Positions 861-51,800 of a stretch of 64,000 nucleotides of DNA are shown in pieces. This DNA is from Undaria pinnatifida. Taxonomy: Eukaryota > Sar > Phaeophyceae > Laminariales > Alariaceae. Below the pieces are notes generated by a model, which did no database searches, was not told the DNA's origin, and saw nothing but the letters and a program-made list of their open reading frames with translations. Location of the stretch: NCBI GenBank assembly GCA_012845835.1, contig JABAKD010000019.1, forward strand, positions 14,867,420 to 14,931,419. Direction: 5' to 3'. Position numbers and translations under genes: made by a program. Each line of letters begins with the position of its first letter. Positions within the stretch are counted from its first letter, which is position 1.

Positions 861-960
861 CCTATTGACCTGGAACCCATTGTCCAGGGTGTGATACATA
901 CCGTAGTGCGCGTCGTACCAAAATATAACGATACGGGCTGCGTTTGGATCGATGCATCAA

Positions 961-1015
961 CCCCTCCTATTCGCCTCCAGCAAGTCCTCTACGCGGTACC
1001 AGCGGCGTCAACCGC
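961..1015 (-). pseudogene. Copy of the 3' part of Josephin exon 6
   Basis: The minus strand reads WYRVEDLLEANRRG followed by TGA, a near copy of the WYRVKDLLEANRGG segment encoded at about 1185-1140. It lies downstream of the modelled stop. Confidence 0.75.
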
Positions 1016-1065
1016 AAGACATGCGGTGTCGATGCGGAAACAAAAAAAGACGGAGAGTGGTTCCA

Positions 1066-1313
1066 TTAATTATGTCCCCAAGACAAAATAAAGCACCCAG
1101 ACAAAAATGACGATGAGGAGAGCGGTTGAAGGGATGTATCACCTCCCCTATTCGCCTCCAGCAGGTCCTTGACGCGGTACCAGCAGTCTCGCGCGCCATC
1201 CCCAGGCTCGCTAGCCGGCGGCGGCATGTCCTTTCCCCTTACGACGAAGACAGAGTACCCATCGTTTCGAAGCTGGTGGAGGGTCGCCTCCAGAGCGAAT
1301 GTTGTGATGCGTG
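1066..1313 (-). CDS. Josephin gene exon 6 (last exon as modelled)
   Basis: The acceptor is GATATCATAG. The exon encodes RITTFALEATLHQLRNDGYS, then VFVVRGKD and WYRVKDLLEAN, matching the end of the Josephin fold. Read through, it stops at 1068-1066 after a serine-rich tail. Decayed copies of this junction lie just upstream in the intron, and a copy of its 3' end lies at 961-1015. Confidence 0.85.
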
Positions 1314-4300
1314 CTATGATATCACAAAAAAAGGCAAAAAACAATGGAGGGTATCCGCGTGGCAGGAGGCATGCGAAAGGCAAGGGGATCAGAATAAGTA
1401 GGAATGGTAGTAGTGGGTGTATCAATATTAGTAGCAGTGTGGGAGGCAAGGGAATCAAGTTGATAACACGATTAATAGTGTAGTGTTCGGGAGGGTTTCC
1501 GCACGGCAGGAGGCGTGTTTGTTCGTTTTGAAGATGGTGAAGCGTCGCATCCAAAGTCACTGTTGTGATGCGCGCTGTCACGTTAACAAACAGCAGTAGT
1601 ATAAGTAGCATACACGCACAAGGGGAGAGACAAGAGGCGTGCATAGGGCAAGAGGCAAATATGTTCGTCACGAAGCAGAGTATCCATCGTTTTCAAGGTG
1701 GCGGAAGGTCGCCTCCAGAAGGAATGTTGTGATGCGCGCTACCACATGCCCTGGTAAACAAATACGAACCAACAGTAGTATGCAGGAGGGTTTCCGCAAG
1801 ACAGGAGGCGTGTGGGGGACAAGGGGCAAGGGTTCTCGTCAGGAAGTACACAGGCATCGGCCATAGGGTTTTCACAGAAAGTCGGCGACGAAGAGACTAC
1901 TGACTCACAAGGATAATCCAGCGTTGAGTTGAGGTCCCAGTACACCCCTCCGATTTTTCGGATGGCCACCCAATGAGCGTGCCTGTTCAGCACGAACGCT
2001 TCCTCTACTCCATACCTGCGCCAGTGGTCCGCGAAAAAAAGACAAACACGACAGCACAATTCCAAAAGGTGAGAACCAAAAGGTGAGAATGAGAATAGTA
2101 AGCAAACGAGAGGGGTGTGATTCCGCACGAAATATGGATAACATTCAGGTCATTTTCACACAGCTAGTATCACCAACTTTGTCTACATTTCAGAAAGAGG
2201 GGTGTGTTTTCGATCTTTTACTTTTCGGATACCCTCGCCTGCACCGCGAATATCATGCCATCATATATACAACACACAGCCGTCTCCTATAGTAGCCAGT
2301 CCGGGAACATAACATAGCACCAACAAATCAGACATCCACGGATCCTAGGAATCCTATGCAATGCCAGATATATCTATCAGTCGTCAAAAGCACCTCTGAA
2401 CCGCAACGAGGGGTTGGTCGCTCGTCGTGCTCACGTTCTTCACCATCTACCAACTAGCCAGACACTCAACAATTATGGGAGTCCTATACCGGCGCCACAT
2501 AACATCAATCATTCAACAATGGCTGCTCATTCCGAACAGTAACAGCATTGGTCGCTTCTTGTACTGCCAGTCTTTGCCTTCCACCAACATTCACCAACAA
2601 ACACTCAATAATTATACTGGTAGAATCGTATCATAGAACGAACCACATGCGATAGACTGTTTATCAAGCCGCATGCCATACATTGGAATGCCTGTGTTCC
2701 GGCTTTTCAACTCAAGACAACCCCGGGATTTCAAGTCAAGCACAGCAGTCCCAAGGGGAAAACCGTTCACACGTCGGACAGATCATAAATACCATCTAGA
2801 TCATGTAGATCATGCAGATCATATAGATCATGTAGATCCTTACATCTGTCGTAATTATGTATTGTGCAGGACCAATGTACTACAAATCCAACCGCGGAAA
2901 CGTGTGTCAGATTTTTTAGAGCATCCGGTTCTCACCTAGGAACACCAGGTATAGGTCATGCATATAATATAGTATAAACCAGGGATATCCCTGCCCTGGA
3001 AGACACAGATCATCAGCAGATCATCAACAGATCATTGATAAAGGTCTAATCTGATCGGTCCCATGTGTGTAGCCTTAACCTTTTCGTCATACCAGGTAGT
3101 ACCGTAGTACCAAAAGTATCCGCCACTCGACATTCTGAACCGACGGAGAAGGCGTGCTCACCCGGTGGTGTTCATTTTTCAGCCAACACTCTCGCTGCCT
3201 GCCGATACCAGGCGCAGTCCGTACAGTCTCTCCAGGGCAATATAAAATAGCAACACATTCACCAGCTAATCAGACACTCAGAATCATACACAGGAATTAT
3301 ATCGCCTGTGCGAAACAAGTACATCACTCGACAACTGCCGGCTCTCGGAGGCAATTCTGAGCCACAACAAAGTTGGTCGGTTGTTGTACTGCAAATTCTT
3401 AGGCGCAGCACTCAAGAGTAGTACTTCAGCCAATCACAACCCCGCGCGCAGCGCATAAGCCACTCCACCGTATCGGCACAACTACAAACCCTCGCCGCCT
3501 GCTGATACCTGGTGTAACCCGTGCACTCACTTCAAGGCAACCCGGGAAAATAGCAACAGCCTAACCAGCTAATCAAATAGTCATGAATAATCGGGGATAA
3601 CATACAGCGCCAAATACATCCATCACTAGATAGCTGGAGGCTACACAAATCCGCCAATTAACCAAATACCTCGCCACACATCATCCCAAATAGGCATCAT
3701 AGAAAATCGCCAAACATATCAATCACGCGACAACTTCCCGCTGACGAGGCAATTCCGAACCGGCAAGAACGCGTGCTCACCCGGTGGTGTTCATTTTTCC
3801 TCCAACGCTCTCGCTGCCTGCCGATACCAGGTGCAGCCCGTACAGTCGATTCAGCGCCGTGCTAAGGACCTGCCGAATCAAGGTGTCCACGAGTGAGCCA
3901 TGAAAGCTCATTGTGCTTGTCTCATTCGTCTCAATGGCAGAAGTCAATACAAAGCATGTGACGCTTATTACAGTATAGCACACCTGACCGTAGATTACGA
4001 TGCGAAAAATTGCAAGTTCATCAATAAATCCATACCTACTGTGCATGAGCTCCAGCGTGTTGAAGACGGGCACGAAGCCACAAGCAGCAGCATGCTTTCC
4101 GATCCGACGGACGATCTGCACCAACCCTATCCATATCAACACCTGGTAGTCTTCAACTACGAAGTAGTACCTTATTAGCATATTAATAGTATAATAGTAG
4201 TATCTTCATCGTATCATAAACGTATATTGATAGTGTCATAATAGAATTCTAACAGTATGTTAATGTTATCTTAATAATATATGAATCGTATCTTAATAGT

Positions 4301-7300
4301 ACTTCGAAGTGTTACTAGTATCCCTGCAGTATCATAGTCGCATTCGTCGGCCGGACGAGAGCACGCCGCCACCCACCTGGATAGAGAAATTTCCGGCAGC
4401 ATCCACATTCCCGGATTCCTCCGCGAGAAACCTGTGTCGCCCAAAAACGATAGCGATAATGGTCACGATGACGGATTTTATAGTTTCTGTGCGCAGATAG
4501 ACCAACATCACCCTGTTGACCCTGGTACAAGCTACACTGTAGTTATTAGGGGAGCTACCGACCAATCTTCTCAATGAGGACACGCCCCCAGTAATAGGCG
4601 CGATCGGAGTATCACACACACAGCTTGCAAACATGAGTTTTGACGAAATCTTCGATCTCACAACTGTAGTGTGTTTTAACTTTTAATTATGTTGGGCTGT
4701 GAGTTGGTTGGACTTGGCAACTATTTGACAGTAATAGTATTAATGGTACGGGAGAACATGATAGTCAGGAGCCAATATGGTTAGGAACGACAAGAGATTG
4801 GATAGGTTTTGGTGTATAGCGTGGGTCCTAGTTACTATGGTCCTACGTAATACTCGGGCGGTGAAGTAAAAGCACAAATGAGCTACCGCTGTAGGCTTTA
4901 TGGTCCTGTTCTAGTCTTACACAACTGCACCTACCTTACCGCATCCCCATCCTGGCCTGCACCTGCCATGGCGCCTACTACTGTAGCTACAGTAGCTACA
5001 GTCTTTGTAATTGCAGCGTGGGACCATATCACCCATCAGACGCCAACTAACTGCGAGTTCCAGCAGCACTACCGCCATGTAACGATGTACACAACAGCCA
5101 TAGTCATGTACCATGGTGTACATGGGTAGTTTTAAATAATCAGTAATAGTGTTTGTTGTTGATTTCACATTGGCGGATTGCCATAAAGTAACCCGCGGTC
5201 ACCAAGACGCCCACGGAGTCTGTAGTCTACATGCCTATATGCTGTGTACAGAAAGGCAGGAAAACAAAGCCAAGCGAAAAAAAGCAAGGGTACAAGGATG
5301 GCAGTCAGTCCCACCTAATGGGCTAGTCTCTGGCAGTATTAAAACGTCCTAGAGTACTAAATTCCTGTTGTATACTAGATACAATATACTATATACTATA
5401 TATGTCCAGAGAAGAGTCCCACGGCCTATTGTGCAGGTACTACTAATAGCCGTACGATACAAGAGTAAATTCTAGTATCAAATAAATAGCATACAAAAAT
5501 ATATGGGCACAGCAGTTGTAGTCGTTCATTAGGGCGTTGCCTTGTAATACCTTGCAATACCTTGCAATACCTTGCAACACTTTGCAATACCTTGCAACAC
5601 CTTGCAATACCTTGCAATACCTTGCAATACCTTGCAGCACCTTGAAATACCTTGCAACATCCACCCTTAAGTAGCACTAAAGTAGCACTAAACCGATACC
5701 CCCAAGTATGGTGGGATGGTACAGGCTGGTTCAAGTTAAACGACGGAAGTTTATTCCCCGGTGAATGTTATGCCGTTTCGTCGATTCAAACCGTGAAATG
5801 TTGCACACGTCTTCGATGTGCCGTTGCGAAGATCTTTACATGTCATTTATTTACTTTTTTTTCACTGATTTTTCCTCTGTGAAGATTTTTGGACAATTTG
5901 GACCACCTTAGACAAAACATTTTCGGCGAAAATAACAGAAAATAAAAAAACGCCCTTAGGTCAGGCCCTGGGATGGGCATATAGAACACGTGCGAAAAAT
6001 ATCAGGGTCTGTAGCTCAAAAACGGCGTGGACCTTGGATTTTTGTGCGAAAAAATGAATAATATACCTTATTTCCTTGAAATGACTTGGTTTTAGTGGAC
6101 GATCCAGTGTTTTCGTCATGTTCTGCGTAATATTGAACATAGGCCGGTCAGATCTTCGTTTTTTTCCGCCAAGCGTTCTACAGACATGCCTTGGAGTTGT
6201 AGTTGTAATTGTAGTTGTAGTGGTAGTAGTAGTTGAATTTGAAGTTGAAGGTGAAGTTGAAGTTGTTGTTGATGCTGCTGTTCTCACTTAAAATCGCATA
6301 ATCAAGTCCGTGGTCACAGGACAGGCTTCAGTCACTCCGGATTGGAGGAATGCCCCAAGAATAAAACACAAAAAAAAACAAAAGTGGTACACGCATATGT
6401 CATAGCTGACGCAATTCATGCCTCCGCCAGAAAACAATAAAAAGTTAAATCGGGAGTCAGCCAACGATGTGCCAGATCCATACTGGTAGATACGTCGCAC
6501 TACTCGCGCCTTAAAAAACCGACTACACCGGTTGCGACCCAGAAAAGACGATCAGGTATACGTTACACGTGGTACCTATCACTACGCTTACGCACGTCAG
6601 ACTCAAGCCAATTGAAAGAAAAGGAGAAAAAACAGGAGAGAAGAGTAAGCGCAAAAGGAAGGAAAAGAAAAGATAAGATGAGAAGAGTAAGCAAGGGAAG
6701 GAAAGGAAAAGAATGCCATACAGGCAGACCCTAAGAACTGACTAAAGATGGACATTGGGCTCATAGAGGGTATGTATCAACTGCATCATCAATGACAGTC
6801 GGGGGAGAGCGCAACAAGGCGAAGAAGTCAGGGCGGTGTTACGCTAACTTGTGACGGCCATTGGAAGGCCCACGAAGCTCAAGACGATGATGGCCAGACC
6901 CAGACTGCAGTCTCTTGGGCAGGACGCCCCCCTCCCCCCCCCCCCCCCCCCGCCTCCATCCCCCCGGCCGCTTAGAGATGCGACGGTGGATGGCGCTGCC
7001 GCGGCCTTTGCGTGTCGCTCTCTGCATCTCTCCGTGGTAGGCCACTTCCGCATGAATGACTCTGCTCCCTCCTTTACCCGTCGAAACCATCTGCCGGCCT
7101 TCTGTGCATCATTTCGCCACCCTTCGAACTTCATTCCAAAGGCCGACACATCCTCCTTCAGGTGCACCATCCAGTCTTTCTCTTGCCCCCCTGAGTAGCC
7201 CTTACCCCCAACAAGCTCCCCAAACATCACCCTCTGTGGCAGACGCTCCTCCCCCATACGTGCTACGAATCCCGCAAACAATGTCCTCCGTTTGCTCACT

Positions 7301-25130: not shown

Positions 25131-25180
25131 ACTCATAACTCGTGCTCCGAACTCGTCCGCACGCCTGCTTAACCAAACAG

Positions 25181-25820
25181 GCGATTTTTCCCTAACGTGA
25201 TCGTTGGCTTCGGCGTAGCTGGACAAGCGGCCTTTCGAGCGCTCTTGACAGCCCAACCAGGAGCACGAGTCCTGGTTATCGACGACAGCACCGACCTAGC
25301 CGAGTCGAGGGCGAACGCCTCCCCGTCCGGATGCCCGCCCACTAAGAAGCCCCAGTGGGAAGGGGGCGGTATCGCGGGAGTCGGTGCAGCATGGGCTGCT
25401 ATTGCTGGAAGTCAGGTGGAATATATGATGGGCTCTCGAGCGACGACCCTCGATTCAGACCGTCACACAATTACCGTGACGAGGAGTCGCGAGTTGGAAG
25501 AAGGGGGGGAAGGAAGGAAGGAGGTGGGAGGGGGGAAGGAGGAGGGGGGAGAAGACGTAGCCATGACTCAGATTGAATTCGAACGATGTGTGTTAGCGAC
25601 AGGGTCGCGGCCTCGACCGCCACCACCGGGGTATGTCGACCCCAGGGTGTGGGGAGGCGTGTCGGTGCTGAGGTCGGGAGGCGAAGGCAGACAAGACCGA
25701 GAGGAGCTGTCGCGGGAGGTGGCCGCTGGAAGGTCCGTGACCGTCATCGGTTCGTCCTTTCAGGCTCTGGAGCTGGCGTGCTCGCTCCAAGAAAAAAGGA
25801 ACGCTTCTTCTCAAAAGAAG
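25181..25820 (+). CDS. AIF-like gene exon with FAD- and NAD-binding fingerprints
   Basis: The likely acceptor is CTTAACCAAACAG|G, after an in-frame stop at 25170-25172. The exon supplies one base and then 213 codons. A Gly/Glu/Lys-rich stretch (about 25497-25560) is a low-complexity insert. The exon ends at AAG, 25820. Confidence 0.88.
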
Positions 25821-28800
25821 GTGAAGTGGCGCAAGGTGTCAAGCTACTGAGCTAAAGAATGCGCGGTTTGACCCCATGGCATAATTATTTTTGACTGACC
25901 GCCTTGACTGACCGCCCTCTACACTAAACATAATTCCTTAATCAGAGGATGGGCCGCTTCGGTGAGGTGACGATTTGACTGACCGCGGTTTGACCCCTTG
26001 ACCGCCCGCCCCCCTACACTAATATTGTCACATTTAGGCCAAGTGAAACCTCCACGCGCCCAAAACAACCTACAGGAAAGGTGTCAAGCACGTAACGTTG
26101 TCATAGAAGACAGACGTTTGACCCCTGACGTGACCGCTCGCTTGTGCTAAACCTCTTAATAGCACATCAATTAAGCCCAGGCCTTTTTCTCAGAATAGAA
26201 GGCGAAACAATGTTGAGCGTCAAGCACCAAGCACATATGCTAATACAAATAGGGTGTTTGCGAGACAACAACTTTGGTTGTGTAGGAATGAAAATAAGTG
26301 ATAATAATACTGAAACCGACTATTAACAGCGTCATAACCCAAGGCCAACCTAACCCACGGAACTTTAGGCTAGAAGCGCAATTTTGGCCCGTTTTCGATG
26401 GTTTTTTCGTGGGTTGGGTTGGCCTTGGTGTTGTTGTTGTTGTTGTTTGTTGTTGTCGTTGTTGTTATTAATATATTATATATCTTCCAACACAACTAAC
26501 TTTGGTGGACATCCGGCGAACATCCTATTGTGAAGGCCGCTATTTAACCTCTTGACTGACCCCCCCTAAACAACATTGCTATATTTATTTGCGCCGAACC
26601 GCTTCTACGGAGGAGGTGAACTAGCGTGAAGCGTGAAGAAATGATGTTAGGAGATTGCTGTTTGACCGTTTTGACTGACCGTCTTGACTGACCGTCTTGA
26701 CTGACCGCCTTCACTGACCGCAACCCTACACCAAATATAGTGGAATAATGGATTGCTGACCGCTTCTCCGGGAAAAGTGAAGTGAATTGACTTGAGACCT
26801 CCACCAAAGATGCCACGGATGATAGAGTAAACCGCGACTTGACCCCGTGAATGACCGCCCCTACATTAATTGCGGTATATTACTTGTGGCCGGACACCTT
26901 CTCGGCGAAGTGAAGTGACGCATTGACTAACCGAGAATGGACTTTCTTGTCTGACCCTCAACTTAAAAAAAAACGAGTATATATTCATAGAGGACAGACT
27001 GCTTCTGCGGAGAAGGTGAAGTAGCGTGACTCTTTGACTGGCCGTGGTTTGATCTCTTGACTGACCCCCTTGACTGACCGCTCCCTACACTAAAAAAAGG
27101 ATGCTGATTAGGGGTGGGCCGCTTCTACGGAGAAGGTGACGTCTCCTGACGCCAATCGTCACGACAATAAGCATAGGAACCCTTTGACCGATCGATCCCC
27201 AACCTCAATCTGTGTTGCTAATAATGTTCGGACCGCTTCTTTGGAGAAAGTGAACTGACGCCTTGACTGACGGCGGCATGTACCTTTGACTGACCGCCAC
27301 GTACACTATAAATAAAACTAGATTTTTAGTTAGGGCGGACTGTTTCTCCAGAGAAGGTGAAATGAACTGACGCCTTGACTGGCTGTGTTTTTTTTTTGTT
27401 TTTTTTAGCACACGTTCACTTTCCAGCTTCTGGACAAGCCGTGGTCACAGGTGTCATCCCTTCTCCTCCCCGGTTCTTGCCTTCAATTTTTATCGCGCAC
27501 AGGGTTCAGCAATCCCACTGCTCATCGATTGTTCATCGAATGTTGCCAACTCACGCTCTCGCGCTTTCCGCAAGTCAATTTGTCCACAAGAAAAATTCCC
27601 AACGAATTTATACGAGTATGCACTCGGCGGGGCTCGAACTCACGAAACTGACCTATACCAGGCTCGAAGATTACCTGATACGCCACCGGGGCGACCGATA
27701 TTGTGGTATATAACCCCTTGACTGAGCGCACGTATACTAAAAACTGTACATTAATGAAGGCCGGATCACTTATCTGGAGAAGGTGAGTTGACGTCAACCG
27801 CACAAGGACTTGTGATTGGAGACTGCATTTTGTCCCCTCGACTACGCGCCTTGACTGACCACCCCCCGCACTAGAGTTGGCATAGTATAGTTTTGAAGGG
27901 TAGGCCGCTTCTCCGGGGAAGGTGAAGTGATAGTAGGCGTTCAAAAAATGCGCTAAATAGGACGCCGCGGGTTGAACCAGGGATGTGTATTTCCTCTCGT
28001 GCAACCTAAAAACACCCGAAAAGCCCTTTTCCAGTCTTTTCAATGCATTTCCCTAACTTGCCTTTCGTCCAACGACAGAAATACGTCATTGAGAGGCGGG
28101 GACAAAAACGGCCATCCCCGAATGGCCCGTGTACCACATGAAGCAGTGATGTACCATTCGTAGATGGATATTCTATAGATTTGATGTGAAAACCATAACA
28201 CATAGTCGACGTGAGACCATCATAGCTTTCTGATGGCTGGTATAGAATGTGGCGCCTTGGCCGCCATTATAGTTGGGCGATAATATAAAGGATAGTGCTA
28301 ATCCTACATATGGAAGCATCTCGTCGCCCCCTCTCACTGTTCTTACTGTTCCTTAGAACTGTTCCTTAGAGTATCCGACTGTCTTCTGCCTTCTGTCTAA
28401 GCTGTGAGCCAACGCGGAGCCGAATGGCCAAAGCCTCACGAATCATGACGAGACAGCCACCCAGCGCCGTCCACCCTTCTTGTGTCCCCACGGTGACACT
28501 CTATTAATAGTACAGCAGGCCTTGGGGCATCCGCCTACTTACTGCGTTTTCGCTCTACGTGGTAGTATCTGAGTATGACAACCATGTTTTATCAAATCCG
28601 GTTGGTGTTTACTGGATGCCCCCAAGGCTTCGTTGCCGTCTTCGACTTGTAGAAAAAAGCGCCCCCCCTCTCCGCATTGGCGCTGTCACCCATAAGCAAG
28701 AAAGCGTGCACAAGGTGCCGAAGTGCGTCTTACGAGCGGTTCTTGGAAGGATGCAGTGCATCCTTCATGCGACTCGCCGAATATCTCACAGCGCTTCGCG

Positions 28801-30348
28801 CTTGGTGCAAGCAATGTCTGTCTGGTTGGTGAAAACCCAACGTGCCCCGTCCCGGCATAGTAGGGATGCGAGGGTCTATGATCATGCGAGCCCGGCCATG
28901 CACTAACTGAGTACCCCTCCCCCCCCCGCGCCGCCAACGGCGTCTTCGTGCACGGCCTCACCGCACCACAGCAGAGCAAGGGAAGAAAAGGAGCTAGTCG
29001 CATGGTATTTGCTGAATACGCCCCCCTGGGACATATTCTGCCACAGTACTTAGCGATGGCACTACAACGGCGCTTAAACCATAAACAGGTCGAAACTATC
29101 CCCAACAACTCACTCCGCTGGGTGGGGCTTTCCAGCCGAACTCTTCCGGAACTAGCATCATCGCAATCTCTCCGGCATGTTGTGGACGGCACCGATTCGG
29201 CGAAGACAACCGTACCAACGGCCGAGCCAGAGTCGTGTGGCTGTTTTCCGGCCTATTCGACGGCGGAAGCTGATGCCCTCGCTAGAGGGATAACGCCCGA
29301 GCCAAAAGTTTCAGCGAGTCGCCAACGATTGCACGTCATCACCGCGCACTGGTCCGATTCGCGCGATACCGCGATGCACACCACGGACAGGGTGGTGCTA
29401 GCCGGCGCGGACGTAGCGCCACTGTCTTTAACCCTCGACCTTCCTGGTAAGGATGAACCTAGCCTTGACGCCGCTGCGACACCCATCGCGGGGAGGAAGA
29501 AGGCCGGCACTTTGGAGGTAGACGCCGAGACCGGCGCTGTCGTCGTTAACGATGAGCTGGCCGCGACGTCCTGCATATGGGTTGCGGGGGATATGGCGTA
29601 CTTTCCGTCGCGAGCGCACGGGGGGAAGCGGCTCGTCCTTCACTCGGAAGACCACGCGTTCCACAGTGGGACCCTTGCTGGGACGAACATGGCGGTGGCA
29701 GCGATGCAGACCATGACGGCGGGAGGAGGGGGGGCGGTAGGAGCGGGGCGGATGTACCGTCACTCCCCGGCGTTTATCGGGCAGGCGCCGCTGGCCGGCG
29801 TGAGAATGGCGACTGTCGGGGATTGCAGCGCCGCGATGCCCTCGTACGGGTTCTGGTGGACCAACGGAGCCACCGGCCTAACCCGCAAGACCACAGCCGC
29901 CAGCGTGAAGCGGGATCTCACTCGATTTCCACCCGCCGAGGATGGCGAGCGCGCCGGAGGGGTTACTCTGAGGAACCGCCAGACCGCGCGCAGACAGTTT
30001 ACCCCTGTGTTTGGAACCGGCGTGGTTTTCTACACCGATGGAGCTAAGGTGAAGGGTGCCATGCTGTGGGGATTTCCCGGGGAAGCTACGACGGCGGCGT
30101 CAATGACCCATGGGGGGTTTGACATGGACAGAAGCGGTGTGGAGGTGATGACACCGGCGGATGTCGCGTCGGGCATTTCGGCCCGGGCGCTAGACGTCCT
30201 CCGGGATGTTATAGAGCGGAGCATGGATACCGACGTGGATTTCTCTGACCAGAGGGCGAAAATCGCTTGGGTCCAGGGGTTATCGGACGCGGCCAAGGTG
30301 GTGGTCCGGGAGACGGGCGTTGGGCACCTGCAGCCGACGAGGAAGTGA
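25181..30348 (+). CDS. AIF-like FAD/NAD(P)H oxidoreductase (exons 25181-25820 and 28972-30348)
   Basis: Two exons give about 671 residues of an apoptosis-inducing-factor-like flavoprotein. The first holds the FAD fingerprint VGFGVAGQAA followed by PGARVLVIDD, the CVLATGSRP block and the NAD fingerprint VTVIGSSFQALELA. The second continues the NAD domain (VFAEYAPLGHILPQYLA), then has the second FAD motif WVAGDMAYF with HAFHSGTLAGTNMA, and a C-terminal domain with GTGVVFYTDGAKVKGAMLWG as in AIF. The 3151-bp intron is phase 0: donor AAGAAG|GTGAAG, acceptor CACCACAG with branchpoint-like CTAAC at 28903-28907 and a C-rich tract. Human AIF is a mitochondrial intermembrane NADH oxidase linked to respiratory-chain assembly. 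Ser/Ala-rich inserts make this copy longer than human AIF in the NAD domain. The N-terminus is missing here; see 10327-10614. Confidence 0.9.
26428..26466. repeat. GTT microsatellite
   Basis: GTTGTTGTT run in the AIF intron. Confidence 0.85.
27385..27707 (-). mobile_element. tRNA-derived SINE-like element, copy 2
   Basis: On the minus strand an A-box-like TGGCGTATCAGG (27685-27674) and a B-box-like GAGTTCGAGCCCC (around 27640) lie at tRNA spacing. The shared body follows, ending with an A-rich tail (T-run at 27389-27409 on plus). It is inserted in the AIF intron in antisense orientation. Confidence 0.82.
28680..28920 (+). repeat. Dispersed element R, copy 1, ending at the AIF splice acceptor
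   Basis: It shares with 38060-38420 and (inverted) 42130-42440 the order CACAAGGTGCCGAAG, GCGCTTCGCG, GGTGAAAACCCAACGTGC, GATGCGAGGGT and a final ATGCA-GAGTA followed by a C/T-rich run. Here that C/T-rich end supplies the branchpoint and pyrimidine tract of the AIF terminal exon. Confidence 0.8.
28972..30348 (+). CDS. AIF-like gene terminal exon
   Basis: 458 codons and TGA at 30346-30348, with no further intron. An acceptor three bases later (28975) would keep the frame, so one Gln may be optional. The WVAGD motif is encoded from 29578. Confidence 0.9.
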   Translation, partial: QSKGRKGASRMVFAEYAPLGHILPQYLAMALQRRLNHKQVETIPNNSLRWVGLSSRTLPELASSQSLRHVVDGTDSAKTTVPTAEPESCGCFPAYSTAEADALARGITPEPKVSASRQRLHVITAHWSDSRDTAMHTTDRVVLAGADVAPLSLTLDLPGKDEPSLDAAATPIAGRKKAGTLEVDAETGAVVVNDELAATSCIWVAGDMAYFPSRAHGGKRLVLHSEDHAFHSGTLAGTNMAVAAMQTMTAGGGGAVGAGRMYRHSPAFIGQAPLAGVRMATVGDCSAAMPSYGFWWTNGATGLTRKTTAASVKRDLTRFPPAEDGERAGGVTLRNRQTARRQFTPVFGTGVVFYTDGAKVKGAMLWGFPGEATTAASMTHGGFDMDRSGVEVMTPADVASGISARALDVLRDVIERSMDTDVDFSDQRAKIAWVQGLSDAAKVVVRETGVGHLQPTRK

Positions 30349-30597: not shown

Positions 30598-31200
30598 TTG
30601 ATCTATCATATCATATCGTATCATATCGTATCATATCGTATCATACCATATCATACCATATCATATCATATCATATCATATCATATCATATCATACCATA
30701 TCATATCGTATCATATCAGATCATAACATATCATATCGTATCATATCGTATCGTATCATATTATACCATATCACATCATATCATATCATATCATACCATA
30801 TCATATCATATCATATTATATCATATCATACAATATCATACCGTGTCATATCATATCATACCATATCGTATCATATCGTATCATACCATATCATACCATA
30901 TCATACCATATCATATCATATCATATCATATCATATCATATCATATCATATCATACCATATCATATCGTATCATATCATATCATAACATATCATATCGTA
31001 TCATATCGTATCGTATCATATCATACCATATCACATCATATCATATCATATCATACCATATCATATCATATTATATCATATCATACAATATCATACCGTG
31101 TCATATCATATCATACCATACCATATCATACCATATCATATCATATCATGTCATATCATATCATATCATACAATTTCATACCATATCATACCATCTCATA
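30598..31200. repeat. TCATA pentamer satellite, about 0.6 kb
   Basis: A near-continuous array of TCATA with variants TCGTA and CCATA. A longer internal duplication is visible: the order of variants at about 30690-30850 recurs at about 30945-31110, so the array grew by copying blocks of about 255 bp. Confidence 0.93.
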
Positions 31201-34552: not shown

Positions 34553-34689
34553 GTAAGAAATACTTGATAACTGAGAGCCGCGGTGGTGGTGGGCGAAAAA
34601 TCTGTAGCATGTGGGCGAAAAACAGTAGCATTAGGAGCTAGGTTTGTCGGGTTGCCAAATAACGCCCCGAAAACCCGGTAGCTTTGGGC

Positions 34690-35545
34690 GCTGAATCTGT
34701 TGAGTGCCCTTGTGGACCGAGAGATCGATATAATGGGGAGCTGGGCCTCTTGGATGGTCTGGTGGGCCAAAATACCGGTAGCATCGGGACCTATGTCTCC
34801 TGGGTGGCCTAGTTGGTCGAAAAGCTCAAGCATTGGGTGCTGGGTCTATTGAGTGGCCTAGTGGATCGAAAAATCGGTAGCATCGGGCGCTGGATCTCTC
34901 GGATGGCCTAGTGGACCGAACAATCGGTAGCATCGGGCACTGGGTCTCCTGAGTGGCCTAGTGGATCGAGCTATCGATAGGATTGGGCGCCGGGCCTCTG
35001 GGATGGTCTAGTGGACTAAACCATCCGTAGCGTTGAGAACTGGGCCTCTTGGATGGCCTGGTGGACCGAGAAACCGGTAGCATTGGGAGCTGGGCCTCTT
35101 GGATGACGTGGTAGACCGAAGAACCTGTAGCATTGGGCGCTGGGTCTGTTGGGTGGCCTAGTGGACGGAACCATCGCTAGCATTGGGCGCCGGGTCTCTT
35201 GGGCGTCCTAGTGGATCGAAACGTCGGCAGCATTGAGTGTTGGGTTTGTTGAGCGGCCAGGTAGACCGAAAAATCGGGAGTTGGGTCTCTTGGGTAGTCT
35301 AATGGGCCAAACACTCGATAGGATTGGGCGCTGGGTCTCTTTTTTGGATGGCCTAATGGACCAAAACGTTGATAGCATCGGGTGCTGGGCGTCTTGGGTG
35401 TCCTATCAATGGTGCACCAATACATCGGTAGCATTGGAAGTTGCGCCTCTTGGGTGGCCTATTGGACAAAAAAATCGATAGCATTGGGAGCTGGGCCCCT
35501 TGGGTGGCCTAGTAGACCGAAAAACCGATAGCACCGGGCGTTGGG
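34690..35545. repeat. 50-bp minisatellite block 1
   Basis: The unit GTGGACCGAACAATCGGTAG continues as CATTGGGCGCTGGGTCTCTTGGGTGGCCTA. Starts at 34861, 34911 and 34961 show an exact 50-bp period. Because 50 is not a multiple of 3, the reading frame rotates and the frames here are not genes. Confidence 0.92.
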
Positions 35546-35554
35546 TCCCTTGGG

Positions 35555-35815
35555 TACCCTCGCCTCGGTGGGTGGAAAAAAACATGCGCATATCGTACTG
35601 TATACACGTTTGGCCTGTCCCTGTCCGATTTCCCATGCTAGAAGAAAATTCGCTAAGCGTTTGGCGCGGGGGTCCCTTGGGTCACTTCGCCTTGATGCCG
35701 ACTGCTAATGTGGGGTTGGGTTGGGTTGGGTTGGGTTGGGTTAGGTTTGGTTGGGTTGAGATTCATTGGAAGCTGCAGCTTATTCCGTTGTGGACGGCGG
35801 AGCAGCTGATACTTG
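35555..35815. repeat. Higher-order module after 50-bp block 1
   Basis: Starts GGGTACCCTCGCCTCGGTGG, passes TGTCCGATTTCCCATG and GCCGACTG, and includes a GGGTT run at 35714-35740. It is repeated at 36420-36640. Confidence 0.85.
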
Positions 35816-35839
35816 GTGACTGAAAGCCGCGGTGGTGGG

Positions 35840-36420
35840 CGAAAAATCGGTAGCATTGGGAGCTAGGTTTCTCGGGTGGCCTAAAACCGGCCTGAACACC
35901 CGGTGGCTTTGAGCATTGGGCCTGTTAAGTGGCCTCGTCGACCGAGAAATCGGTAGCATTGGAAGCGGGGCCTCTGGGATGGTCTAATGGACCGAAAAGC
36001 TGGCAGATTGGGCGCTGGGTCTGTTGGGTGGTCTAATGGACCGCAATTCGCTGGCATTGGGCGCCGGGTCTCTTGGGTGGTCTAGTGGATCTAAGAATCG
36101 GTAAAACTAGGAGTTGGATTTCTTGGATGATCTAGTCCACCGATACATCGGTAGTATTGGGCGCTGGGTCTCTTGGGTGGCCTCGTTGACCGAACAATCG
36201 ATAGGATTGGGAGCTGGGCCTCTTGGATGGCCTAGTGGGCCAAAATATTGGTAGCATCGGATGCTGGGTCTCTTAGGTGGCCTAATGGAGTGAACAATAG
36301 GTAGCATTGGGTGTTGGGTCTGTTGGGTAGCCCAGGGGACCGAGCATTCGGTGGCAGTCGGAGATGGTCCCCTTGGGTGGCCTAGTGGACCGAAAATCGG
36401 TAGGACTGGGCGCTGGCCTA
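35840..36420. repeat. 50-bp minisatellite block 2
   Basis: Same unit as block 1. Each block is followed by the same 220-260-bp module, so the two together form a higher-order repeat. Confidence 0.9.
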
Positions 36421-38059: not shown

Positions 38060-38455
38060 CCGCTTCCGGAAGCAGGAGCGATCGCCCACATGCATTTGTG
38101 TTGCTGCAGTTCCCAGCGTGCAGGACATGGCATGCAGGATGCAGAAGCAATTACCAGTCGCGACGCCCCCCCCCCCTCATACGACTACGGCAATGCCTGG
38201 AATGCGTACTCCACCCCCCCGCCCCTCGCCGCCAGACTCGCCGAACACCTCACGGCACTTCGCGCTTGATGTGCGCGCTGTCTGCCTGGTCGGTGAAAAC
38301 CCAACGTGCGCCGCCTCGGCGTTGTCCGGGTGCGAGGGTCAAAGGTCATACGACTACGGCTATGCATGAAACGAGTGATCCTCCTTAATCTCCCCTCCGG
38401 CAACGGCTATGCATGAAACGAGTGATCCTCCTTAATCCCCCCTCCGGCATGTAAA
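38060..38455 (+). repeat. Dispersed element R, copy 2
   Basis: Matches 28680-28920 through GGTCGGTGAAAACCCAACGTGC and the C/T-rich end. The last ~50 bp (CAACGGCTATGCATGAAACG) are tandemly duplicated. Confidence 0.78.
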
Positions 38456-41440: not shown

Positions 41441-41559
41441 CGACACGTGCGACGAGGCAATCGAACAAAACCCCCCCACAAAAAATAAGTTATGTAGCTG
41501 TTTCAGGAGGCAATGAGGCAGCCAATAACTACCACCCCGTTACCGCTTTTGCAGTACAC

Positions 41560-42129: not shown

Positions 42130-42440
42130 GGGTGTACTCATTTTGCGCATAGCCATAGCCGTATGGCCACAGACACTCGCATCCCGAAGGGAGCACGTCG
42201 GGTTTTCCCAGACCAGGCAGCCATCGTGTGCACCCAAAAACGCGAAGCGCCTACCCTGGCATCCCTACAGTGCCGTGCCGGGTTAGGGCAAGTTGGCCTC
42301 TCACCGGCCAGGAAGACGCCGCATGCACCAAGAACGCGAAGCGCCTTGAGGTGTTTGGCAAGTTCCATGGAGGGTGAGCTGCATCCTCTTAACAACCATT
42401 TGTGAGGCGGACTTCGGCACCTTGTGCGTACTCTCTTGCA
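42130..42440 (-). repeat. Dispersed element R, copy 3, just 3' of the GARP gene
   Basis: The inverted copy of element R begins 14 bp beyond the GARP stop codon, so it probably forms the 3' UTR. The GCGCTTCGCG segment is duplicated inside this copy. Confidence 0.78.
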
Positions 42441-42453
42441 CATGGGAGGGCAG

Positions 42454-42837
42454 CTACCCGTGTGGGGGGGTATCCAACAAAAAGCTGAACAATTGAAGAT
42501 CCAACGTGTCATCATCCCAATACAAGTCGTTGCTGAGCAAAGGTTGGGGTGCATCCACGTCGGTCGCTAGTATGGCCGACGGAGACAAGCCTTCCGGACC
42601 ACCACCACCACCACCGCCACCAATACCACTTACGCTGTTACCCATACCAGGGTCTAGCTCCCCCGCGTTCGGCATAGGTGGGTGCGCGGCTAGTAGCGGA
42701 GCCCCAGGCCCAGTAGCGCCGCTAGGGCTTCTGCCCGGAGTGCTGGGACTTCTGGCGGAGGTTGGTGGTCTGTTGAAGAGGGAATTTTCAGTCGTGCTAG
42801 CTTGCGAAGACGCATCTGCATCGGACGGCTGCTGCTG
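42454..42837 (-). CDS. GARP gene terminal exon k
   Basis: A long pyrimidine tract and ACCAACAG precede a CAG run. The 127 residues are Ser/Pro-rich with a Gly8 run and end in DDDTLDLQLFSFLLD before TPPHG and TAG (42456-42454). The acidic-hydrophobic end looks like a transactivation segment. Confidence 0.85.
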   Translation of the reverse strand, partial: QQQPSDADASSQASTTENSLFNRPPTSARSPSTPGRSPSGATGPGAPLLAAHPPMPNAGELDPGMGNSVSGIGGGGGGGGPEGLSPSAILATDVDAPQPLLSNDLYWDDDTLDLQLFSFLLDTPPHG

Positions 42838-45800
42838 CTGTTGGTGTGGGGGGTGGGCGGGGGTGGGGGGAGGGGAGAGGTACGGTGGGGGCGATGAAGG
42901 GAAGGAGTAAGGGCCAGGGCGTCTACAGCTGACGGTAAGTTAGGTGCGATCATCAAGGAAACGAGTCAGGTGAGGAGGTCTACCTGAAGGCGTCGTATGT
43001 TGCCCAACTAATAATTATCTGCAGCTGTCAGCTGCTGTGTTGGGTGGGTGACGTTAAGGGAATTAATTACGCGAGGTGGTCTGAAGATGACGGCTGCTGC
43101 TGCAGCGGCGGTGGCGGCGGGCGGGTGGGGTTGGATGGGTGCGAGTAAGCGATTCGTTGTCAAGCAGGAATTTCTCCGCTTCCTTTTCGTCATATCTTCC
43201 CTTCTTCTCTAAAGTCCCGAAAGAAGGTATTAATAACACCGTGAGCCGTTCGCAAACAGGCAGTCCTCCACTTATTTTCTCAACACCTGTTCCTGTTCCT
43301 TCTCCAGCCCCAAATGGATTAACGTGAAACGCGCAAAAATGACTCCACGCGAATTCCGACAAGTTTTCGCCACAAACGAGGGTTAAGCTCTGAAGGGGCT
43401 GAACCAAAAGTGTGACAAGAAGTTAACGCCGTCGGTCCTGTCCAAACAGGCAATTCCCCGCTTCTTGTTTTTGAAGAGTGTTTCCTCTCAGGTCCCGAAC
43501 GGGCTAGAAAACGACGGCGATAACGACCCTCACCTTGGCCGTTGGGCCCTCTGGGCCCGGGGTAAGCCCGAACGGACCAGAAGAGCCAACGAGGGCTTTT
43601 CCTTTCCCCTTTCCTTCCTCTTTTCCGTGCTGTTCCTGCCGCTGTTGTTGCTCTAGCTCTTGCTGTGCGTGAAGCTGCAACTGATCCTGGGGGAACGAGG
43701 GAGAGAAAGGTCATCGCAATGTTGTGGGTGTGGTTGTTGTGGTGGTGGTGGCTGTTGTCGTAGTGATTTTTCTCACACCAACTCATCTCCGCACCCTGCT
43801 CCGTCGTCACAAGACAAGCTCCAACACAACCCCATCAGCCAATCCAGGGACAATGATCAAGCCAGTAGTATTACCACGGTGGTTAAAGGAAATTGCCGAC
43901 GCCAATCCCCCCCCCAACAACACCCTGAGACCCGCGCCGTCACCGCAAGCCGCCGCGGCTGCATGTACCGCGCACCTGCTGCCTGAGACGCATGAGTCGG
44001 TGAATGTCCATGCTCGTCTTCATTTCCATCCTCAGGCTCGTCTCGTCTATCCCCTCCTTCGCCCCGTCCAACATAGCCGCCTCCCATTCAAGATGCTCGA
44101 GCGGGAACACGCCGGCCTCGCGAACCGACATCAGTTGCCCCGCACTCGATTGTCCCGAACCTGAATGTCCCGCGCCCAAATATCCCGCGCCCAAAAGCCC
44201 CGCACTAATCGGCAGCATGGGCGTGCTCGGCGTGTGCATAGGGGGGGCAGAGAAGGCAGACAGCCCCGCCAAAGCTGCCGCTCGAAGGGGCCCGTAAGAT
44301 GGGCTACCTGCAGCCCTTAAGCTTCCAGCAACCACACCAACACCACCCCCATCACTACCCCCCCCCCCCCCCACCACCACTACCTCCGCCACCAGAAACA
44401 GCAGCAGCACCACGACCAGCCCGACCAGCACCAGCAGCATGCCCACCACCACCACTCACCCCCCCACTACGACCAGAACCATCAGCAGCACCACTGCCGC
44501 CAGCACCGCCACCATCACCCCCCCCACCACCATCACCGCCACCACCATCACCCCCACCACCGCCAGCACCACCACCACCATCATCCCCACCACCACCGCC
44601 ACCCCCCCCACCACCGTCACCAACGCCCGCACCACCAGCACCAACACCCCCCCCCCCTTCACCACCGCGACTATCCCCACTACCACCAACACCAGCAGCA
44701 GCAGCAACACCAGCACCAGCACCAACCGTAGCAGCGGGCGCAGCGGTATATCTTTCGGGGGCAGGTAGAGAACTCGCGGTTGGCCGAAAGGAGAAGAGGT
44801 TAGGCGTGCCTTCGAGGCCTCTCGGCGGAAGGCCCAACTTTAGGGAGGACGCTCGAAGCATGTCGGCGATATCGGCTGTGGCAGCAGCAGCAGCCATCCT
44901 TTGCTGCGTTTGGGAAATTTGCGGCAGGAATCGGGGGGGGGGGGAGGGGGGGGGATAGGACAGAGGATGGCTAGTTATTTAGAATACAGCTTAAGCACAG
45001 AAACAGCACCTTGCAGCCGTGGATGGTAGCAGCACTAGTAGCAATTTTTCTTTCAGCATCAGTCTCAGTAATGGAGTCAGAGTATCAGTGTCCGTACTAG
45101 TATCCCAGTATCATTGGCAGCAAGCAGCAGCAGCGCCAGTATAAGTGGCAGCAGATAGAGTACTACTGTACCAAGTACCAGCAGCACTAGCAGAGTGGCA
45201 ATATGGCATCAGTATGAGCATCAGCACCAGTATCAGTATCAGTATCGATATCCTTCATCATCAAAATCATCATAAGCATTATACAGTAGAATATACAGTT
45301 GTAGCAAAACGAAGTACGGTGCAGCAGTAGCAGTATGAGTACGATTGATATTAATAACACCACTATCACAATAAGAGATGCCTCACCGCAGACGCTCGTG
45401 GCGGCAGGTAGCTGCTGTCCTTTCCACCACTTGTGCCTACGGTACTTCTGCCGGAGGCAGGCAGAGAGGACTGCCTGCTGCCCTCGCGGCTGGTGTTATC
45501 CTTGTTGCTGTTGTCCCTGCTGCTGCTGTCCTTGCGGCTGCGGTCCTTGCTGCTGCTGTCCTTGCTGCTGCTGTCCTTGCTGCTGCTGTCCTTGCTGCTG
45601 CTGTCCCTGCTGCTGCTGTCCTTGCTGCTGCTGTCCTTGCTGCTGCTGTCCCTGCTGTTGCTATCCTTTCGAGGAAGCGACTGAGCCGGATTAACATTAA
45701 TTGTCTTCGGCCAAGCCCCGGCGCCGCTGACTTGAACAGAACCTGTTGGCCACACGCCTGAGGTTCCCATGGCATCAGAATTATGTGAAAACAGTCGGAT

Positions 45801-48800
45801 AAGTCATATTCTCTAGGCCAAACAGTAACCAGATACCTTGGAAGTTGATGAACCTCAGCGGCAGCTTCAATATCACTACGCATGGAATGAAGTGTTTCGC
45901 AGTTGGCACTTAGGCCATACTCTTTGATGCAATGTTACAGTATCCCAGTTCAATTCCAATCGGTTTGTTGGTGAAACGAATGCAGTCGTAGATTAATACC
46001 TGGTGTATTAGTGATTATAGCACCACGCGCATTTCGTAACTGACTTGTGCCTTCAAAATGACAACGTACTCATAGGCTAGACTAGTGGGCCATCTCTTCT
46101 GGCCAATAGCGCAAAACTTTGCTATGTGCTGCGCCTCCGGCGTGAATACTATTTATACCATTCTGTCTCAAACTACTGCTGTGTAGGAAAAAGGTTTGCC
46201 GTTTATGGTTTCCTCCAACAGCATAAGCTACTATTAACAACAACTACCAGGTAACAACCTTTCACACGTCGAACATACCAGATCCCGACTGATGATCTAT
46301 TGATGATCTGTATATTCAGGGCACATAAATCCTTGGTATATACGATGTACATGAGATATAGATAGATCATGTTACCCGGTGAGAGCCGGACGATCTGAAT
46401 GATCCGAATGATCTGAATGATATAACACATGTTCACTGCTGTGCCCTGGCTTGGATCTGTGCTACACGTATTCTTCACGGCATGCCATGCCGACATTACG
46501 ACATCTATTTCGAAGTATAGGGTTAATTCATACGTGATGCAGATGATCTAGATCGTGACCTGTCCGATGCGTGTAGTTGTTGGGATTATTGGGGAGCCAT
46601 GTCTAGCGGCCAAAGGCACGATGAACGCGAGCATATCCACCTTCGAGGAAGAGCGTCCAGCAGTACGGCTACCACACTGTAAATAGCATTATGCTACCAC
46701 AATGCTGCGCTGATGACCCCTTGCCCCCGCGGCTAACAGCAGCTAACAGCGGCTAACAGCAGCAGGCAGTAGCTAACAGCGGCTAACAGCAGCACACAGC
46801 GGCTGCCAGCGGCTAACAACTAGCAGCGGCTAGCAGCACGCTAACTGCAGCTAACAGCGGCTAGCAGCAGCTATTAACAAGAGCAGAAAGGGCTGCTTCG
46901 TGTGTCTGACAATCTTTTCTTGTTTCTATAACTTCAGTTCCACGTTTTCTTTTTCTCTGACTTTTCAAAGGGGTTAAAATAACTGCTGCAAATTTAATGC
47001 CACACGCACCTCCCACGCCGCTTGAAGTCTCGCTCCCCGCTCGAGGTTCCTCATCACCCGACACCGGCAGTCCCATCTTCCTCACCTGTCACAGTGTTGA
47101 TTACGCAATTGACACGCCAGCCGAGGATAAGCTTGACAGCTATAGACTAGACTACACTTACCGATATGGTAGGGGGTTGACTACAACTCCATCGATACGG
47201 AAGGGTACTGTGTTGAACAGAGGACAGCACAGAAGAGCTCAGGGCAGCACTAAAAGAGAGCACTGCAAAAAGCACAGCACAGCACAAAACGCATCAGGAT
47301 AAAAAACTATTGCATATTTATAGGACAGCATCAAGTGGACTAGTCATGCGCGACACTGCAGCCACCAGGTCATCTCCAAGAGGCAGCATCTTGAGAGGCG
47401 CAAGAAACAGGTACCAGGTACAGGATAACCTGCTTATTTGATTCTTCAAACACTCAAGCTTCTGCATACAATACACTCACCACATTCCCTTGTACATGGC
47501 GTGCGTCAATTAAAGGAGCCGCTCCGCGCATTCTCTGGTGTGCTTTGGTTGATGTTTCGAGTAAACATTCTGTTATGTTTTTCCTTCAGCATAAGCCCCA
47601 CTATTTCTAGTATATAATATTCTTGCGGTAATAATGAAGTGTTACGGAAAACGCCATATATCTTTAATCACAGCTTCATTCTCTACGCATATGACATGCG
47701 AAGAAAACTTACATTCGAGGCAGTATTTTCGCACTACTGCTAGTTCACTCGGACGCATGCTTTAGCCCGAAAAACGCCTGAGAAGCTAATGAATGCTGTA
47801 TGTATCACTCTGCTATCCATTGGCCATCTGAACAACGTACGAGCTCTCGAGCCACCAATTTCGTTTAACATTGAACTTCGGCGACATGCCAACCACTTGC
47901 ACACCGGCCGATGCCAGCCTCGAACGGAACCCCGCGCTCCTTACGGCACGAGCGCCGCAATGTAGTTGTACGGGTTAGGGGTTGCAGAATGACCAAACTT
48001 CAGGCATATCTGTACGGGATGCAAACACAACAAGGCGTAAGTTTTAGTGATATGCTGATAGTTGACCGGTCGCCCCGGTGGCGTATCAGGTTATCCTCGA
48101 GCCTGGTATAGGTCAGTTTCGTGAGTTCGAGCCCCGCCGAGTGCATACTCGTATAAATTCGTTGGGACTTTTTCTTGTGCACAAATTGACTTGCGGAAAG
48201 CGCGAGAGCGTGAGTTAGCATCATTCGATCGAAAGATCGACGATCAGTGGGATTGCTGAACCCTATGCGCGATAAAAATTGAAGGCAAGCACCGGGGGGG
48301 AGAAGGGACGACACCTGTGACCACGGCTTGTCCCGAAGGATGAAAGCAAAAGTGTGAGAAAAAAAAAAAAAAAACTTGAAAAAAAATTTGGGCTGAACGT
48401 AAGCTTCCTTCACATATCATATAAAGAGACAACGAAGGTGTTGTTCGGGAGGCGTGCCGCTTTCCGTGAGGCGTTTATCATAGGAAACTAGTATATCGGA
48501 ATCCATATAGCTGCTGCGGAAAAGACAAAACATAACAAAAAACAACGAAAAAAATAGACTTACAACTGTAGTATGGCCAGCATAGGTAGCCGGAACAACA
48601 AGATAAGAGGTCAGCAAGCTGCCGTCAGGTTAGCTGGGCTGCCGAAATAAGTGCTGTAGATACAGGGCTACAGAAATAACTACCTGGTATATACCAGTAC
48701 AGGTATACCAGTACAGGTCCTGGCGTCTTTTTACCTGTATTGAATACCAGTACAGGTATACCAGTACAGGTCCTGGCGTCTTTTTACCTGTATTGTCGAA

Positions 48801-51800
48801 AATTACTATTAATAGATACAGCTCAATACTCTTGGAGTATCACAACACGCACTGCACCTTCTCCATGATGGCAGCTTTGAGCGCCTCCTGGGTCTGTATC
48901 GCCTGCAGCAGGACTCCGTGCGCGCTCTTCTGGATCTGAAGAAGCATTTCAAAAGCAACATCTCATCAGACCAACGAGTCTCCACATAATCATACAGTTC
49001 ATGGCGCAGAGGAACTAAATGATGGCAACATACTCTCAAGCAATCACAATTTATTAACGATGAGCAAGAAGTGAATCGCAAAGCAAATACACTGCGATAC
49101 GTATCAATTTAACAATCAATTTAAAATACAACTAAACCTATTTCGGAGGGGGAACTATTGGACACAAAATGACCATGACACGATTACACCATTAGTCGGT
49201 TACAGCATCGGCTACACCAGGCAGCGCGAGCTTTTGGGGCAAGTTGCGTGTCCGAACAGCTACAACCTGCACGCATTGCCACATGACTCACACCGCGCAC
49301 CAAACAAACATCATATCGCTCGTGTTGCACACATAAATCCCAGCTGCTGTATTCACCATTAACAGTCAACCAATCAATCAAGCCTCCACGTGGGCAATAA
49401 TCACCCACACTTGTCCTACACATTGCCGCCTCTCACACGAGTAGCTCGGTCGGTTATTGTCCCATATGCCGCACATACAAGGGTTCCACACCGTGTGCAC
49501 CCTAAATCATACAAGTATGAACGCCAGGTTCCTGGACCAGCATGCCTACTCATATTGCAGGAAACCCCTCGCCACCCCCCCTAACTCTTAACCCTTTGAA
49601 TACTTCTGAAAACGCCATCCCACTCCAATTGCAAGTAGTTTTTCTCCAAAAAACGTGGGCGCAGTGCTTGAGAGGATAACACAGCAACGAAATAGACACT
49701 CCACGTGGCGCACCTGCACGCACTGGCCCATGAGCTCCACGCTCCGCTTGACCTGAGGGGCATCGAGCCGTTCCATAGCATTGACAAACTCTACAGGCAT
49801 TTCGAAAGGCATCTCGAATGCCTCGCTTAGTTGGCCCGCCTCACACTCTAATCTTCTACCGTCTCCTTGTTCCAAAATGCCTCTGTGAAACAAAAACAGT
49901 ACCGGTATCAGCGTCAGTGTCGGCACCAATGTCAGTCTCAGTAATAGTCTCAAGAGTGTCAGTACCAGTACCAGTATCAGTGCCAGTATCAGTACCAGTG
50001 TCAGTATAGTACTCAGTACCAGTATCAGTATCAGCTTCTACAAGCCTCTCGAATGCCTCGCTTAAGGGCCAGACTTACACTCCAATTGAAAACAGTAGCA
50101 TGTCCTTGTTCCAAACTGTCTGTCCGGGATTGGTGGCAGCGCCAGTGTCAGCATCACTACCAGAGACAGCCACAGCAGTCTCAGAATCATACAAATTACA
50201 AGGGTTCCCTCCGGGAAGTGCCTAGGGGAGTGGCGCAAAGACACACGATTATCACATTATGATCACTACCGGACGCGATGAATGATAATGGCCATTGCAT
50301 TTGTTTTGTACATACAAAAAAAATTGCCCGGAAAAATAAATAATTCGCATTTTACCCGCCGTACTTCTTGGGTGTACACAATAGCAGTAGTACTTTTAGC
50401 ACTTTTTGGGTACTCGAGACAGACGTGCCCACGACCGACCTGTTGTTGAGAAAATACACACAACACAAAAAACTTTTACACCGTATGATATGCATGATTT
50501 CGAGAAGAGCGTCACACTTCGACCTCCAGGTTAGGGACCACCAGGAAGCGAGAAGGGGCACGTGTGGCGTGGGATGCGGCTTACTGTAGAATATTACGTA
50601 AAGAGCACCTGTTGACAAGAGGGAGCAAGAGGACAATACGTGACAGGCTATGACAAAAGCAACTCGCCGCCGTAAGGAGAGGATACGGCACGCGCACATG
50701 GTCCTACCACGATAGTAGCGTTTTGCTCTCCGCATGTTGTCTGCTGCTGTCTGTCAATTTGCAAAAAAAAAAACAGAAAAAATACTCGTTAAAAAACTGC
50801 CTCTGTGGACGTCAATATATAAGGATGGGTTGGTTGGTATCTAAATTACTACTATTTTTAAAGGTTCCTATGTTTCCGCATCGATGGATACGCGCACCCA
50901 GAGCGGTAGCACAGCAGAAACGTGACAAATGACAGGCTCCGACATAAGCAACTCGCCGCAGCATAGCGGGGACACGCCACGCGCACATAGACGGTCTGCT
51001 GCTGTGCGACAGGGTTGTAGCGTTGTGCTCTCCGCATGTTGTCTGCTGTCTGTCAACTGCGATCTTACATTAATGGTGTTGCCTACCGCTGCTGCAGTGC
51101 GGCAGAGCTGTAGCGTTGTGCTCTCTTGGTATGGTACGATATCATATACGAAGCACACCAACCTGGGCACAAAACATAATGACCGTTTGAGTACTAATAT
51201 GATATTCAAAACGATCCTTACACTTTACGCCGGCATGTCACTTGGCACTTGACAGGAGCATCAGTAGCAGCAGCAGCAGCGAGAGGTGGCGTAGAGGCGG
51301 ATAGAGCATCGAGGCTCCGACCAAAGCAATCAGCTACTACAACAGCAGCCACACGCGCGGAGAGTTGCATGCTGCTGCTAGGGGGCTGCACTGCTGCTGG
51401 GCGGCAGGATCGTAGCGTGGTGCTCTGTGCCAAAATAGGGAAATGTACGTGTACGAAGCACACCAACCTGAACATAAATATAATTACCGTTTGAGTACTA
51501 ATATGATATTCAAACGATCCATACACTTTACGCCGGCATGCCACTTGACACTTGACAGAAGCAGCAGTAGCAGCAGCAGCAACGAGAGGTAGAGGCGTAT
51601 AGCGGGTAGAGCATCGCAGGCTCCGATCAAAGCAATCAGCTACTACAACAGCAGCCACACGCGCAGAGAGTTGCAGGCTGCTGCTGCTAGCGGGCTGGAC
51701 TGCTGCTGGGCGGCAGGATCGTAGCGTGGTGCTCTGTGCCGAAATAGGGAAAAGTACGTGTACCCGCTACGAGCTAGCGAGCAGAAAAATCCGGTTTGCA

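Follow-up and report, generated by a model that had tools for sequence, protein, structure and literature searches.

Copies of exon edges in introns of the kelp Undaria pinnatifida and short-range direct duplication

Three genes in a 64,000-nt stretch of the Undaria pinnatifida genome (C25:14867420-14931419, hereafter the window) carry copies of their own exon edges within introns: a Josephin gene, a gene for an AIF-like protein and a gene labelled 'GARP'. The initial annotation of the window had read these copies as a theme shared by unrelated genes, and had proposed a common mechanism acting near splice sites, or the gain of introns by duplication of exon edges. We found the copies to be real in all three genes (the score of each was unreached in 1000 dinucleotide shuffles), and one process does recur in unrelated genes; to that extent a common mechanism holds, but the process shows neither a preference for junctions nor a sign of creating introns. 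On this evidence the feature is real, recurrent and was correctly seen but wrongly emphasised, the exon–intron border being a bystander of local direct duplication in introns. Frequent, undirected, short-range direct duplication in introns, with tolerance of copies that cross a border, very probably explains the junction theme.

Junctions and intron interiors in sampled genes

The genome searched comprises 511,146,479 bp in 68 contigs. Sample genes were picked regardless of repeats from two protein families, kinesin (130 exon-level match rows) and CCT/Cpn60 (57 rows). Pairing of consecutive exons gave 78 candidate introns (49 kinesin and 29 CCT), of which 76 were taken further. Splice sites were set by GT-AG, reading frame and absence of stops; 11 introns with weak or unresolved sites were dropped, and from the 65 usable introns (38 kinesin and 27 CCT) six shorter than 400 bp were excluded, leaving 59. 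A junction was counted as a hit if the adjacent intron contained a direct copy spanning the junction by at least 12 nt on each side with a score of at least 24. Inverted copies, introns on other contigs and interior windows of the same introns served as controls.

Junction-spanning direct copies were found at six of the 59 donors and six of the 59 acceptors (12 out of 118 junctions, 10.2%), and these hits fall in 12 introns and in 10 of about 35 gene loci. There were no inverted junction-spanning copies (0/118), and junction windows did not match introns on other contigs (0/590), so the junction copies are not due to chance similarity. Interior windows of the same introns, however, have direct copies more often: 207 out of 1507 (13.7%) at a score of at least 24. 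With the interior rate of each intron as its baseline, the expected number of junction hits is 16.3 and 12 are seen (the simulated probability is 0.94 for 12 or more and 0.12 for 12 or fewer); at a threshold of 28 the numbers are 13.0 and 11 (probability of so few, 0.32). In a previous run with 55 introns the figures were 6/55 and 5/55 for junctions and 213/1621 for interior windows. The comparison of edges with interiors had itself been suggested by the initial annotation; run on this sample it gives no junction excess, so the idea of a splice-site theme is left unsupported. The sample gives no evidence that junctions are hot spots; they may even be somewhat under-represented.

The share of sequence covered by local direct pairs gives a similar picture. 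In successive 30-nt bins of the exon, the last one ending at the junction, it is 0.4, 1.0, 2.7, 7.6 and 13.2%; over the first 450 nt of the intron it is 12.1-18.2%, and the splice site is without a peak. Test windows whose centres lay 62 bp inside the exon still had centre-spanning copies (score 24) in 3 out of 55 cases on the donor side and 1 out of 55 on the acceptor side. A mechanism directed at splice sites (e.g. R-loops or transcription-linked template switching at borders) would duplicate junctions preferentially. The copies in the three genes of the window and at the 12 sampled junctions are in keeping with it, as are several arrays that begin in an exon, but the lower rate at junctions than in interiors and the lack of a junction peak in coverage make it very unlikely; on this evidence a splice-junction-specific mechanism does not stand.

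Intron gain, in which a tandem duplication of exon sequence created the intron itself (the AGGT model), has precedents in two reports (PMC4974935 and PMC2891723), and the copies described here do include exon sequence and a splice site. Such an origin would leave the donor edge and the acceptor edge of one intron homologous end to end, whereas this was observed in none of 61 introns (61 of the 65 usable ones; score of at least 18). Moreover, the paralogue of the AIF-like gene, the single gene compared in this way, holds an intron at the same place. We regard intron gain as highly improbable.

The three genes of the window

Eight junctions of the window were tested by Smith-Waterman alignment of the 60 bp on either side of each junction with its own intron, with 1000 dinucleotide shuffles per junction: five are clear, one is weak and two are negative. 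For the 'GARP' acceptor the target was about 680 bp upstream. Coordinates of the features are given in Table 1.

The acceptor edge of the Josephin gene is present in three copies (1741-1676, 1577-1512 and 1316-1251 in the repeat listing), as had been reported initially, and acceptor 1314/1313 scores 55 against its own intron (best shuffle 23; 0/1000 reach it). The lowest copy is the true exon, since the peptide joined across 1909 / 1313 reaches 66.9 bits against the Pfam Josephin family, compared with 36.5 bits for the upstream open reading frame (ORF) alone; the joined score lies above the 26-bit cut-off of PF02099, for a match to profile positions 99-157 of 157 only. Two edges that had been missed earlier also have copies: donor 3781 (score 69) and candidate donor 1143 of exon C (score 47), each with 0/1000 shuffles reaching the score. 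Donor 1909 has no copy in its intron (score 11). The Josephin region 531-3857 is rich in local direct pairs. That the copies are duplicated alternative exons, either remnant or functioning, would agree with Josephin copies A and B, in which an AG is kept together with some 20 codons in a similar frame, and with the open joined frame of copy B. It is scarcely credible all the same: the copies consist of an exon edge only (about the first 70 of the 171 nt of exon C for the Josephin acceptor, and 13-96 nt in the sample), the second splice site is missing, and copy A joined to the upstream exon runs into a stop (Table 1).

In the AIF-like gene, a 31-nt donor-junction segment has eight intronic copies by tool (nine counting the exon itself), and two further degraded copies (25948 and 26892) were picked by eye; the resulting ten agree with the number first given. 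The repeated unit takes in the final 20 nt or so of the exon, and GT is retained in eight of the ten copies. The donor scores 24 against its own intron (best shuffle 20; 0/1000 reach it), and the acceptor at 28974 has no copy in the intron (score 12). The AIF-like protein has 12 matches, and the five named organisms among them are all brown algae (Laminaria digitata with 55%, two Ectocarpus, Scytosiphon and Hapterophycus).

A diverged paralogue of this gene is found on the same contig, 718 kb off (C25:14174015-14184145), with an intron at the same position. Its intron contains units of its own, three 68-nt copies (spacings 74 and 98) and five 25-nt copies, and the repeat listing shows no copy containing the exon edge. 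Of 53 sites, the consensus of the ten AIF copies agrees with the paralogue junction at 43 and with the junction of the window gene at 32, as expected of old duplicates of a real exon edge, and the copies therefore seem to descend from an ancestral edge. The AIF intron itself appears to predate its exon-containing copies. In piecewise comparison, the Laminaria protein is somewhat less similar to the window copy (59-70%) than to the paralogue (62-75%). We also considered a genome-wide family of the AIF unit and rejected it: queried with 441 bp of the array, the genome yields at least four matches, of which two are its own locus and at least two, elsewhere, are weak and 40-45 bp long.

For 'GARP', a copy of the acceptor edge of exon d is present where it had been placed (score 28; best shuffle 19; 0/1000 reach it), and a copy of the donor is weak (score 18; 6/1000 shuffles reach it). 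The gene label fares less well. The joined peptide, which covers two exons only, has no Pfam family even at E <= 10, and a search of 41-52.5 kb for loose parts of the GARP signature gave the fragments QKYR (45450) and SHVQ (42447) and no whole motif. The identity as a GARP transcription factor is thus unsupported, and we use 'GARP' as a label only.

Table 1. Exons, introns and exon-edge copies in the three genes (window positions; a slash marks a junction)
Feature	Position	Strand	Remarks
Josephin exon (HW...STLDYP)	1909..2015	-	donor 1909/1908; probable acceptor 2016/2015; ORF Pfam E 5.5e-9
Josephin exon C, true copy	1143..1313	-	acceptor 1314/1313; candidate donor 1143/1142; joined-peptide Pfam match
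Intronic copy A of acceptor edge	1676..1741	-	86%; AG kept; joined to upstream exon, stop after about 22 codons
Intronic copy B of acceptor edge	1512..1577	-	67%; AG kept; joined frame open over the stretch read
Donor edge 3781/3780	3752..3857	-	86.9% over 107 bp with 3132-3238; probably the exon copy of the two
Copy of donor edge 3781/3780	3132..3238	-	620 bp downstream in the gene
Copy of exon C 3' end (1103-1184)	921..1003	-	78%
AIF-like exon	25173..25820	+	donor AAG/GTGAAG at 25820/25821; 5' end provisional; Pyr_redox_2 E 1.9e-15; Laminaria digitata homologue 55%
AIF intron	25821..28974	+	about 25948-27928: ten degenerate donor-junction copies
AIF-like next exon	28975..30348	+	acceptor 28974/28975; aligns with paralogue exon; P0001 100% over 67% of query
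'GARP' exon d	49714..49882	-	acceptor 49883/49882; probable donor 49714/49713; no Pfam match
Copy of exon d acceptor edge	50036..50121	-	approximate ends; 86% over 29 nt and 81% over 26 nt; score 28

Local direct duplicates and the proposed process

Local repeats in the regions examined are overwhelmingly direct. Among pairs less than 700 bp apart (score of at least 30), 121 are direct and one is inverted in 161 kb from 12 loci elsewhere in the genome; within the window, 52 are direct and three inverted. This direct excess and the short range point to local duplication and not to dispersed elements, which occur in both orientations. The 135 direct pairs found within 2.5 kb in the 12 loci have a median offset of 286 bp and a median identity of 75.7%; some abut exactly, others are spaced or eroded. 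In the window, after arrays of period <=25 bp were masked, 121 direct pairs within 3 kb cover 17.5% of the sequence. Arrays of donor copies resembling that of the AIF-like gene are found in CCT and kinesin introns: the donor edge aligns by BLAST at seven offsets in cct47, and the numbers are five for cct58, four for kin20 and three for cct50. For Ectocarpus, PMC12477816 reports a fairly even distribution of tandem repeats across site classes, which fits a process indifferent to borders.

Two families of dispersed elements are present in the gene regions examined. Copies of one, about 250 bp long, are found in the window (28675-28925, 38235-38384 and 42253-42446) and at many other loci, 72-88% alike and in both orientations. 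The other is about 300 bp long, lies at 27400-27720 and 48067-48365 of the window and in loci L037, L025, L023 and L032 (89-96% identity, both orientations), and may be tRNA-derived (SINE-like), to judge by its box motifs. The presence of these families could suggest that exon edges received insertions of dispersed elements, introner-like or otherwise, which brought splice sites with them, but each sampled junction matches its own intron only (0/590 others), the AIF array has at least two weak short matches elsewhere in 511 Mb, and both families, found in both orientations, match none of 130 junction windows, while the junction copies are direct only. We consider insertion of such elements extremely improbable. 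One copy of the 250-bp element stops some 50 bp short of the AIF acceptor; a second lies just before the first homologous block of the paralogue.

The reading that we prefer is local duplication without regard to borders. Short-range direct duplication would be frequent, with copy offsets typically of 100-700 bp, and would often grow into degenerate arrays; it would hit intron DNA generally, with no preference for exon edges. We infer that the copies arose through break repair or errors of replication, after which slippage or unequal exchange acted inside the arrays. If a block crosses an exon edge, the outermost edge would retain the frame and the used splice site (the outer splice sites, as placed by the gene models, are presumably those in use), and the inner copies would turn into intron and then drift. 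Selection would remove duplications that change coding sequence, and the junction theme would be what remains.

Several observations weigh against this reading. The ratio of aligned length to offset exceeds 0.8 in only 30% of the 135 pairs, so most pairs do not demonstrate strict head-to-tail duplication. At a score threshold of 22, junctions are mildly depleted (12 seen, 18.2 expected, probability of so few 0.04), and border-crossing copies may carry some cost. Interior inverted copies do occur (15/1507). The 11 junction-crossing blocks reach 13-96 nt into the exon, whereas a random-placement model expects 40% of them beyond 120 nt (0/11 seen) and fits poorly; the shallow depth may reflect selection, or merged arrays that inflate the model. 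The five clear junctions out of eight in the window had been selected by eye and are uninformative on rate. The sample itself is small (59 introns from two protein families), so that it may hide a modest junction excess; interior windows of one intron are not mutually independent, and copies were searched for within introns only. Exon edges evolve slowly and old copies are more visible at junctions, a bias that would raise the junction rate. 'Frequent' is said here of this genome on its own scale.

It is possible, although we hold this tentatively, that kelp introns lengthen largely by repeated direct duplication that includes their own exon edges and incurs little penalty at the border. If true, about one intron in five (12/59 in the sample) would contain copies of its own junction in the form of pseudo-donors or pseudo-acceptors. 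Splicing would still settle on the outermost one, so that the genome would amount to a natural experiment on the choice among near-identical sites, and the own-junction copies would be a source from which new introns could be made. If the sample is typical, 12-18% of near-exon intron DNA and about 10% of exon edges would lie in local direct duplicates, and local duplication would be a substantial share of intron growth in a large-intron lineage; mean intron length is 1,057 bp in Saccharina and 703 bp in Ectocarpus (PMC4421812). By extrapolation, copies of genuine splice sites would be very numerous beside those in use, offering tests of site choice and a warning to annotators of false exon edges.

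Some repeats seen in passing are worth recording. Locus L025 contains a 239-bp direct pair (3856-4094 and 4226-4464; 98.7% identical, 131 bp apart), a young duplication that could help in reading the mechanism. At 34667-36416 and 30604-31200 of the window there are a large degenerate array with units of about 50 bp, in two blocks, and the decamer array TATCATATCA. Two kinesin genes (C2:16034374-16037637 and 16063521-16066784) have identical exon scores and spacing and are 29,147 bp apart; they reflect either segmental duplication in the very recent past or a duplicate introduced in assembly.

Comparison with known systems

In the literature searched, we did not find exon-edge copies described as a genome-wide feature of brown algae, nor their prevalence in a kelp; a comparable single case is already known (potato RdRp, below). 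Introners (PMC9860276) are likewise repeated sequences tied to introns, but they spread into many genes, whereas the kelp copies match their own intron only in the tests made; a word search of that text gave no mention of brown algae, Phaeophy-, stramenopile, tandem, Ectocarpus or Undaria. Fill-in of broken ends by Pol alpha-primase/CST followed by end joining (PMC8355091) is a general source of short direct duplications; the paper concerns experimentally broken DNA and names human and mouse cells, and it applies to the kelp by analogy only.

Novel introns of Drosophila that arose from coding tandem duplication (PMC2891723) are similar in that duplicated exon sequence ends up in introns, but they are defined by new intron positions, a signature not found in the kelp sample. 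A comparable case is the potato RdRp gene (PMC4974935), where a tandem duplication over an exon–intron border carried the splice signals with it. There the outcome was a new intron in one gene, whereas the kelp copies lie inside introns, often in degenerate arrays; and potato RdRp is a single case, whereas the kelp sample, with no sign of intron creation, has such copies at about one junction in ten.

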